Source: Methylotenera sp.
Lineage (GTDB): Bacteria > Pseudomonadota > Gammaproteobacteria > Burkholderiales > Methylophilaceae
Direction of reading: 5' to 3'
Length of the DNA: 39,544 bases
Assembly: GCA_025359405.1 (NCBI GenBank)
Contig: JANYGD010000084.1
Span: forward strand, 1 to 39,544
The notes beneath the pieces were generated by a model that did no database searches, was not told where the DNA came from, and was given only the letters and a program-made list of their open reading frames with translations. Position 1 is the stretch's first letter; every line of letters begins with the position of its first letter. Below are positions 17,790-19,574 of the stretch, in pieces. A program made the position numbers and the translations under genes.

Positions 17790-19124
17790 TTACATCAAAA
17801 TATGATGTAGCAATCCAAATAGCGCGAATGCGCCAATTAATTTAATCATATTTAGCTTAAATTTAAACAAAGCAAACCCCGCCACCAGCGTTGCCCCCAG
17901 GGCGACCCAATCAATACTTGCCTGCAAACCACTTGGCCAAAAAATATGCATGGCGAAAAACACCGCTAAGCTTGCAATTACACCCACTACGGCGGCGGTA
18001 ATAGCTGTCAGCGGCGCGGTAAGCTTGAGATTATTTTGTGTAGATTCAATAAATGGCGCGCCGACAAATATAAAAATAAATGAAGGCAAAAACGTAAAAA
18101 ACGTGACTATACAAGCCGCCATAATGGCCGCTACTAGCGGGTCAGCAATGGGCGCTTGGCTCCAGCCACCCACAAAACCCACAAACGCCACCACCATAAT
18201 CAATGGGCCTGGTGTAGTTTCGCCTAACGCTAAGCCGTCCATCATTTGTGTAGATGTTAGCCAGTTGTAGTGTGTCACCGCGCCTTGATACACATAAGGC
18301 AGCACCGCATACGCGCCGCCAAATGTCAGCAATGCCGCTTTGGTAAAAAACCAACCCATTTGCGTAAATGTGGCATCCCAACCATAGCGCAACACCAATA
18401 GCAGCATGGCTGATAGCCAAATTGCTACGCCAATTGCTAAGAACTTAAACAATCCACGCATGCTAAACATTGCGTGCGCAGGTGTCGGCGAATCGTCATC
18501 AATGACAGCTTTGCCAAAGTGTTTATCGGCCGCTTTGTGACCACTGCCGCCAGCAAATAAATTAGGCACAAAGCGATTACCCAAATAACCTAGCGCAGCA
18601 GCAGTCAATACTATTAACGGAAACGGTATTTTAAACGCTGTAATCGCTACAAATGAAGCTGCAGCAATGCCCCAGAGAGCAATATTCTTAAGGACTCTGG
18701 AACCTATTCTATACGCTGCAAATAACACAATCGCCACTACCGCAGGTTTAATGCCATACAGCACGCCCGCCACGCTGGGCAGGTTGCCAAATCGCATATA
18801 AATGTAGCTGAGCAGCATTAAAATGAGCAACGATGGCAATACAAACAAACCGCCAGCAATGATTCCGCCGCGCGTTTTGTGCATCAACCAACCGATGTAA
18901 GTTGCCAATTGCTGCGCCTCTGGCCCAGGTAACACCATACAATAATTCAGTGCATGCAAAAAACGCTTTTCAGAAATCCAGCGTTTATTCTCTACCAAAT
19001 CGTGATGCATAATCGCAATCTGCCCAGCAGGCCCGCCAAAGCTGATAAAACCCAGCTTTAACCAATACCAAAAAGCTTCTTTTAAGGTTGGCTTTGGTGG
19101 AGTTTCCGTTATTAAATATTTCAT
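17790..19124 (-). CDS. chrA: chromate transporter, two-domain ChrA type
   Basis: The protein (about 444 residues) is a hydrophobic membrane protein with two CHR domains. The first has 'FWYWLKLGFISFGGPAGQIA' and 'MVLPGPEAQQLATYIGWLMH'. The second has 'FFTKAALLTFGGAYAVLPYV' and 'LALGETTPGPLIMVVAFVGF'. The family exports chromate from the cytoplasm, though many members are named by homology alone. The halves are joined by a polar linker near residue 200. The track starts at GTG 19133; I prefer ATG 19124 because the conserved region begins soon after, but neither has a good ribosome-binding site. No chrB-type regulator is adjacent. Confidence 0.88.
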   Translation of the reverse strand: MKYLITETPPKPTLKEAFWYWLKLGFISFGGPAGQIAIMHHDLVENKRWISEKRFLHALNYCMVLPGPEAQQLATYIGWLMHKTRGGIIAGGLFVLPSLLILMLLSYIYMRFGNLPSVAGVLYGIKPAVVAIVLFAAYRIGSRVLKNIALWGIAAASFVAITAFKIPFPLIVLTAAALGYLGNRFVPNLFAGGSGHKAADKHFGKAVIDDDSPTPAHAMFSMRGLFKFLAIGVAIWLSAMLLLVLRYGWDATFTQMGWFFTKAALLTFGGAYAVLPYVYQGAVTHYNWLTSTQMMDGLALGETTPGPLIMVVAFVGFVGGWSQAPIADPLVAAIMAACIVTFFTFLPSFIFIFVGAPFIESTQNNLKLTAPLTAITAAVVGVIASLAVFFAMHIFWPSGLQASIDWVALGATLVAGFALFKFKLNMIKLIGAFALFGLLHHILM

Positions 19125-19200
19125 AAAAATCACTAAATAATAATCACAATTTGATTGTATCTATTAATTTGCGCAATAACAAAAAACTCTAATAATCCAT

Positions 19201-19216
19201 TGGCACGCAAAATGCT
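19201..19216 (+). promoter_or_regulatory. sigma-54 (RpoN) promoter for the 57-residue small protein
   Basis: TGGCACGCAAAATGCT matches the -24/-12 consensus TGGCACG-N4-TTGCW with one mismatch, and exactly ten bases separate the GG and GC pairs, as RpoN requires. Transcription would start near 19227, giving a leader of about 48 bases before the ATG at 19275. The leader contains two copies of TTACTAG (19226-19232 and 19237-19243). An enhancer-binding activator would be expected; none is encoded nearby. Confidence 0.6.
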
Positions 19217-19274
19217 TAATCCTAATTACTAGCAATTTACTAGTGTTTAAAGATACAGAAAGGTTAGGTTTAAT

Positions 19275-19448
19275 ATGTCTAGTACAACAAAAACAAGTTT
19301 AGATAAAATTAAAATGTTAGATCAAATGCTTGAAGATTTAGCAGGTGAAGAGTTTGAAGAAGGCGATGAGTCTGAAAGAGGCATCAGTGCTGGCGTTAAG
19401 CGTCACGATATCACTGAAGACTTAGATGTTATTGATCTCTTGCACTAA
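19275..19448 (+). CDS. small acidic protein of unknown function, 57 residues
   Basis: An ATG-started frame too short for the ORF track reads MSSTTKTSLDKIKMLDQMLE and on to 'ISAGVKRHDITEDLDVIDLLH'. It is rich in Asp and Glu, has no signal peptide or membrane segment, and its first half should form an amphipathic helix. AAAGG lies about ten bases upstream, and a well-formed sigma-54 promoter lies about 60 bases upstream, which together make it a real gene. I do not recognise the family. It lies between divergent chrA and the convergent tRNA-Ser gene. A small regulatory or adaptor protein is possible, but nothing in the sequence shows this. Confidence 0.65.
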   Translation: MSSTTKTSLDKIKMLDQMLEDLAGEEFEEGDESERGISAGVKRHDITEDLDVIDLLH

Positions 19449-19484: not shown

Positions 19485-19574
19485 TGGCGGAGAGAGAGGG
19501 ATTCGAACCCTCGACAGAGTTGCCTCTGTGCCACCTTTCCAGGGTGGTGACTTAAACCGCTCATCCATCTCTCC
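19485..19574 (-). tRNA. tRNA-Ser (anticodon GGA)
   Basis: The minus strand from 19574 reads GGAGAGATGGATGAGCGGTT, and its 3' end is TCTCTCC-G-CCA, pairing with the 5' acceptor stem. The anticodon stem CCACC/GGTGG encloses CTGGAAA, giving anticodon GGA. The long variable arm (CACAGAGGCAACTCTGT) is the class II serine type, and GGTTCGAATCC is the T loop. CCA is encoded in the genome. Confidence 0.97.

Follow-up and report, generated by a model that had tools for sequence, protein, structure and literature searches.

The closest described systems are sigma-54 (RpoN)-dependent genes and small acidic regulators. The locus analyzed here shares with sigma-54 systems a -24/-12 promoter of the TGGCAYN5WTGCW type with GG-N10-GC spacing, the genome-wide enrichment of this pattern, and a host that contains rpoN and bEBPs. 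It differs in that an enhancer site was not recognizable at the studied open reading frame (ORF). In addition, all members of the protein family of this ORF (family 1) have an A at position -15, where the common sigma-54 consensus has a T. The sigma-54/NtrC-dependent glnA gene of the same genome has the same promoter type, but it is preceded by an NtrC dyad that the ORF lacks. The promoter type is also that of the sigma-54-dependent pilA gene (PilS/PilR) of these genomes, and a block resembling the region upstream of pilA was found in five genomes of the genus g20. However, the ORF encodes a soluble acidic protein and not a pilin, and it lacks a perfect TGACA-N5-TGTCA dyad. SutA and FlgM-like anti-sigma factors are small acidic regulators, and the product of the ORF resembles them in being short, acidic and partly disordered. 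The family described here is shorter and has an AGDE core of its own, and no library match connects it to these regulators.

Results

The promoter and the leader of the 57-aa ORF

The window is a stretch of 39,544 nucleotides from the genome of a Methylotenera species. For its central part, the initial annotation had proposed a small acidic protein that is under sigma-54 control and had been overlooked in ORF calling, preceded by a near-consensus RpoN promoter with ten bases between GG and GC. Such a promoter, TGGCACGCAAAATGCT, with exactly this spacing, is indeed present at positions 19201-19216, and promoter, leader, Shine-Dalgarno motif and ORF follow each other in register as had been described (Table 1). 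The strict pattern TGGCACGNNNNNTGCW (TGGCACGN5TGCW) matched once in the window, compared with 0.05 expected matches, and the looser pattern TGGCAYN6TGCW matched twice, compared with 1.07 expected. In the whole genome, 18 matches to TGGCAYN6TGCT were found versus 2 for the reversed control, showing that the pattern is enriched. Because the loose pattern was near chance level in the window, the case was built on conservation and not on the promoter match by itself.

Table 1. Coordinates of the ORF, its predicted control elements and its neighbors in the window
Feature	Position	Strand	Basis or remark
Sigma-54 (-24/-12) promoter TGGCACGCAAAATGCT	19201-19216	+	Strict pattern match and conservation
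Predicted 48-nt mRNA leader with Shine-Dalgarno motif AGAAAGG (19258-19264)	19227-19274	+	Start from the -12 spacing
Small hairpin CTAGC-N5-GCTAG at the 5' end of the predicted transcript	19229-19243	+	Inner pair broken in the window genome
57-aa acidic protein, core DKIKxLDQMLEDxAG[DE]E	19275-19448	+	Homologues, purifying selection, pI
ChrA-type chromate transporter, divergent upstream neighbor, outside the unit	17790-19133	-	TIGR00937
tRNA-Ser(GGA), convergent neighbor, outside the unit	19485-19574	-	ARAGORN

The element TTGGCA-2-CAAAATGCTT was unchanged across the seven Methylotenera loci, while the remaining upstream region and the flanks varied. TGGCA[CT]-N6-ATGC[T/A] was found 62-98 nt before the start codon in all 30 family 1 homologues, and a sigma-54 promoter also preceded all five members of a divergent sister family (see below), such that it was present in all 35 related genomes with either family. 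The initial annotation had made its proposal dependent on conservation of the ORF and of the GG-N10-GC element among relatives; both are conserved, and the proposal of an overlooked sigma-54-driven gene is strongly supported.

With C19215 taken as position -12, the transcript is predicted to start at about 19227. The Shine-Dalgarno motif is kept in the Methylotenera homologues with minor variants. The small hairpin was found in six of the seven Methylotenera homologues, with one pair kept via a double change, and it was absent from the remaining one (L003) and from other genera. In Methylotenera, it perhaps protects the mRNA. The leaders of the larger g20 group (L020-L034) contain a conserved block, ACTGACATGTTTGAG, upstream of the ORF, and in some of these genomes also a three-codon upstream ORF (ATG TTT GAG stop).

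The 57-aa protein and its conservation

The ORF extends from the ATG at 19275 to the stop codon at 19446-19448 and encodes MSSTTKTSLDKIKMLDQMLEDLAGEEFEEGDESERGISAGVKRHDITEDLDVIDLLH. The pI of the protein is 4.26, and the calculated values ranged over 4.05-4.26. By eye, neither a signal peptide nor a transmembrane segment nor a catalytic motif was seen. AlphaFold predicted, with moderate confidence, a helix at residues 3-24, with a pLDDT of about 83 at residues 11-20 and low confidence elsewhere, as well as a weak C-terminal helix; for the sister family, a single weak helix spanning the core was predicted. The helical moment was 0.33-0.42. Both structure models were poor (pTM 0.31 and 0.16), and one helix was too weak for a fold search. 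No significant profile match to the protein was retrieved from Pfam, NCBIfam, PHROGs or the PDB, and a profile match (E 0.035) to part of a viral polyprotein in the PDB was judged to be due to chance. No report on the protein was found in the literature.

A protein search of 61 relatives revealed the ORF in seven genomes, all of them Methylotenera, the genus of the window, with 54-100% identity. The profile search extended this to 30 of 187 Methylophilaceae genomes, namely 7 of 15 in Methylotenera (g1), 21 of 22 in g20, and 2 of 6 in g10. The start codon, the Shine-Dalgarno motif and the stop codon are conserved, and the changes are mainly synonymous. The dN/dS ratios were 0.015-0.16 in g20, where several pairs were saturated, and 0.04-0.57 in Methylotenera. 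They were thus well under 1 for most pairs, revealing purifying selection on the protein. A single DNA pattern that combined the promoter, the start codon and AG[DE]E at set distances matched 34 genomes, all of them known carriers, and none of the 152 other genomes; the reversed control gave zero matches. The pattern failed to match one carrier (G107), whose leader is longer. Homologues were found neither among the sampled genomes of the order and the class outside Methylophilaceae nor in viral contigs. Outside these genera, weak profile matches to HtpG, to a HAD phosphatase and in g16 frames lacked the core or a promoter and were regarded as chance. Together, these findings make it nearly certain, as judged from the sequences, that the 57-aa ORF is a real conserved gene with a sigma-54 promoter.

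The tRNA-Ser(GGA) gene lies within the locus of all seven Methylotenera homologues (ARAGORN). In five g20 genomes (L058, L059, L060, L061 and L062), a gene for a protein of about 80 aa lies directly upstream of the studied gene. This protein is probably exported, contains a C-N/K-TVMGGC motif (CNTVMGGC) and has a sigma-54-type promoter of its own; a Methylotenera homologue of it (L076:2844-2972) is present without the promoter.

A divergent sister family

The weak matches of the 26-row family 1 profile (E 0.002-0.03) fell in precisely five Methylotenera genomes, none of which has a family 1 ORF. These matches define family 2, i.e., 63-aa ORFs of the type MxRxxxxExxLxxxMxxLxLRSDDFAGDE..., which share the core [ED]D[FL]AGDE with family 1 and have TTGGCATAACTYYTGCTT upstream of the start codon. 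In the reciprocal search with a family 2 profile, family 1 members were the next best matches, and hhalign aligned the two cores with an E value of 2.5e-6 and a probability of 89%. This similarity is confined to about 25 residues, and homology of the two families is likely, but not proven. No Methylotenera genome has both families: of the 15, seven contain family 1, five family 2, and three neither. Family 2 resides in a different neighborhood (DNA repair, cupin). Its members (L168-L172) end in an invariant YALGI, which recalls the YALAA end of the ssrA tag and is possibly a degradation signal.

Candidate activators

The window genome (91% complete) contains rpoN and three sigma-54 activators, which were named from sequence features and mutual similarity and not by a family scan: NtrC, encoded on the glnA contig, PilR, and a third one (EBP3) beside an ExeA-like ATPase. 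The near-complete carriers G000, G033 and G096 have only NtrC and PilR in common. Neither EBP3 nor an L115-type activator is universal among carriers, and both were rejected as activators tracking the gene. The regulon of the PEP-CTERM system PrsK/PrsR was excluded because PrsR (TIGR02915) is absent from the carriers; it was found in 2 of 187 genomes, neither of them a carrier.

In the window genome, clear NtrC dyads were found upstream of glnA and of a putative sRNA gene, but the dyad TGCAC-N7-GTGCA was not found upstream of the ORF. The pilA-type dyad TGACA-N5-TGTCA was absent upstream of the ORF in Methylotenera, and a degenerate version was found in five g20 genomes only. The process suggested initially (nitrogen response, motility or C1 substrate switching) is therefore unproven, as neither dyad precedes the ORF in the window genome. 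From the sequences, PilR appears to be slightly ahead of NtrC as the candidate activator.

The pilA sigma-54 promoters of three genomes (L047, L224, L253) are preceded, about 145-165 nt upstream, by a perfect TGACA-CTTTT-TGTCA dyad, a promising candidate for the site recognized by PilR in Methylophilaceae. Further sigma-54 promoters were also found. Promoter TTGGCAYRGYTRATGCTTA precedes a candidate small RNA in L055 (G000:C200:7768-7783, minus strand), L237 (G114) and L263 (G006); the RNA, AGCTTCTCCAAAGC...CTCCTCCC followed by a terminator, is conserved in two genera and has only sub-threshold Rfam matches (suhB/mmgR). A second candidate sigma-54 small RNA is located upstream of an IscX-like gene in L043 (G000:C87:494-509, plus strand) and L243 (G114:C1:1761951, plus strand), with NtrC-type dyads upstream and a clear terminator in L043. 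In addition, two more proteins of 70-75 aa without a Pfam family are encoded behind sigma-54-type promoters in the window genome (L038:907-1116 and L039:1219-1443).

Discussion

Our preferred reading, which is tentative and has slightly less than even odds, is that the ORF is a sigma-54-dependent gene that stands on its own and encodes a small, acidic protein of the cytosol, which acts by binding a partner. RpoN-RNA polymerase would wait as a closed complex at 19201-19216 until an activator opens it; by the intersection of gene content, this activator would be NtrC or PilR, which is unproven. Opening would occur in one particular condition and yield a pulse of the soluble protein, which has a mass of roughly 6.4 kDa. 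Docking onto a partner protein is probably the task of the N-terminal amphipathic helix, which ends in [ED]D[FL]AGDE; the tail, acidic and largely disordered, may tune this helix. The protein would thus be an adaptor or inhibitor within a sigma-54-controlled response, and not an enzyme. Counting against this reading, no NtrC or PilR site was recognized upstream in the window genome, the space between chrA and the promoter is only 68 bp, the structure models are poor, and no partner, domain, co-conserved operon or fold match was found.

Several other explanations were weighed. That a chance promoter match precedes a spurious ORF has a negligible probability: the loose pattern is expected about once per window, but this explanation is refuted by the 35 of 35 co-occurrences with a control of 0, the invariance of the promoter and the dN/dS ratios. 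It is very unlikely that the transcript functions mainly as a regulatory RNA, with an incidental ORF or a dual function. The retained 5' hairpin of Methylotenera would fit such a short RNA, and transcription from two further sigma-54 promoters in the window genome seems to yield short, terminator-bearing non-coding RNAs. However, selection acts at the protein level, the translation signals are conserved, the hairpin is missing outside Methylotenera and in L003, and the Rfam matches were restricted to the tRNA and chance matches on its antisense strand. An equally low probability is assigned to membership in a stress or redox cluster, with a functional tie to a linked glutathione peroxidase gene. 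This idea stems from the presence of the latter gene on the opposite strand within about 3 kb at 19 of the 20 other loci of carriers, which represent two different genomic backgrounds. The peroxidase gene is missing from the corresponding position in the window and does not form an operon with the ORF, and the context of the sister family is a different one; shared ancestry of the region is the simplest explanation for the linkage.

The two regulon explanations differ in the activator. If the gene belonged to the PilR/type IV pilus regulon, it would be co-expressed with pilA and modulate pilus synthesis or PilS/PilR. PilR is present in the near-complete carriers, and the block TGTCTAAAATTTGTCA, conserved in five g20 genomes, resembles the perfect pilA dyad. 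Yet no site above the level of shuffled sequences was found in Methylotenera, the larger g20 group, g10 or the sister family; PilR was not found in the carriers G097 and G005 (90% and 75% complete); and G008 and G010 have PilR yet neither small protein. We regard this explanation as unlikely, and a role as an NtrC-controlled nitrogen-starvation protein as still less probable. In its favor, nearly all genomes examined contain NtrC, and a sigma-54 promoter precedes glnA in the window genome. In contrast to glnA and the putative sRNA gene, however, the ORF has no clear dyad, and the best matches lie more than 250 bp away inside the chrA coding sequence and are not conserved in all genomes. A broader proposal, to which we give a rather low probability, is that the two families are lineage-restricted, sigma-54-gated modulators ("AGDE-core"). 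The two divergent versions would replace each other in related species, share only the promoter type and the short docking core, and possibly act back on the machinery of sigma-54 or on the activators themselves.

The protein family is new; the kind of gene is a familiar one, and its regulation is ordinary. The results illustrate that a small unannotated gene can be recognized as real when a short ORF and an uncommon promoter are conserved together, and the same approach also yielded conserved candidates for sigma-54-driven small RNAs. For the abundant freshwater methylotrophs, the gene represents one more predicted sigma-54 target. Its partner, if found, could bring to light that responses under sigma-54 control have a post-transcriptional layer.
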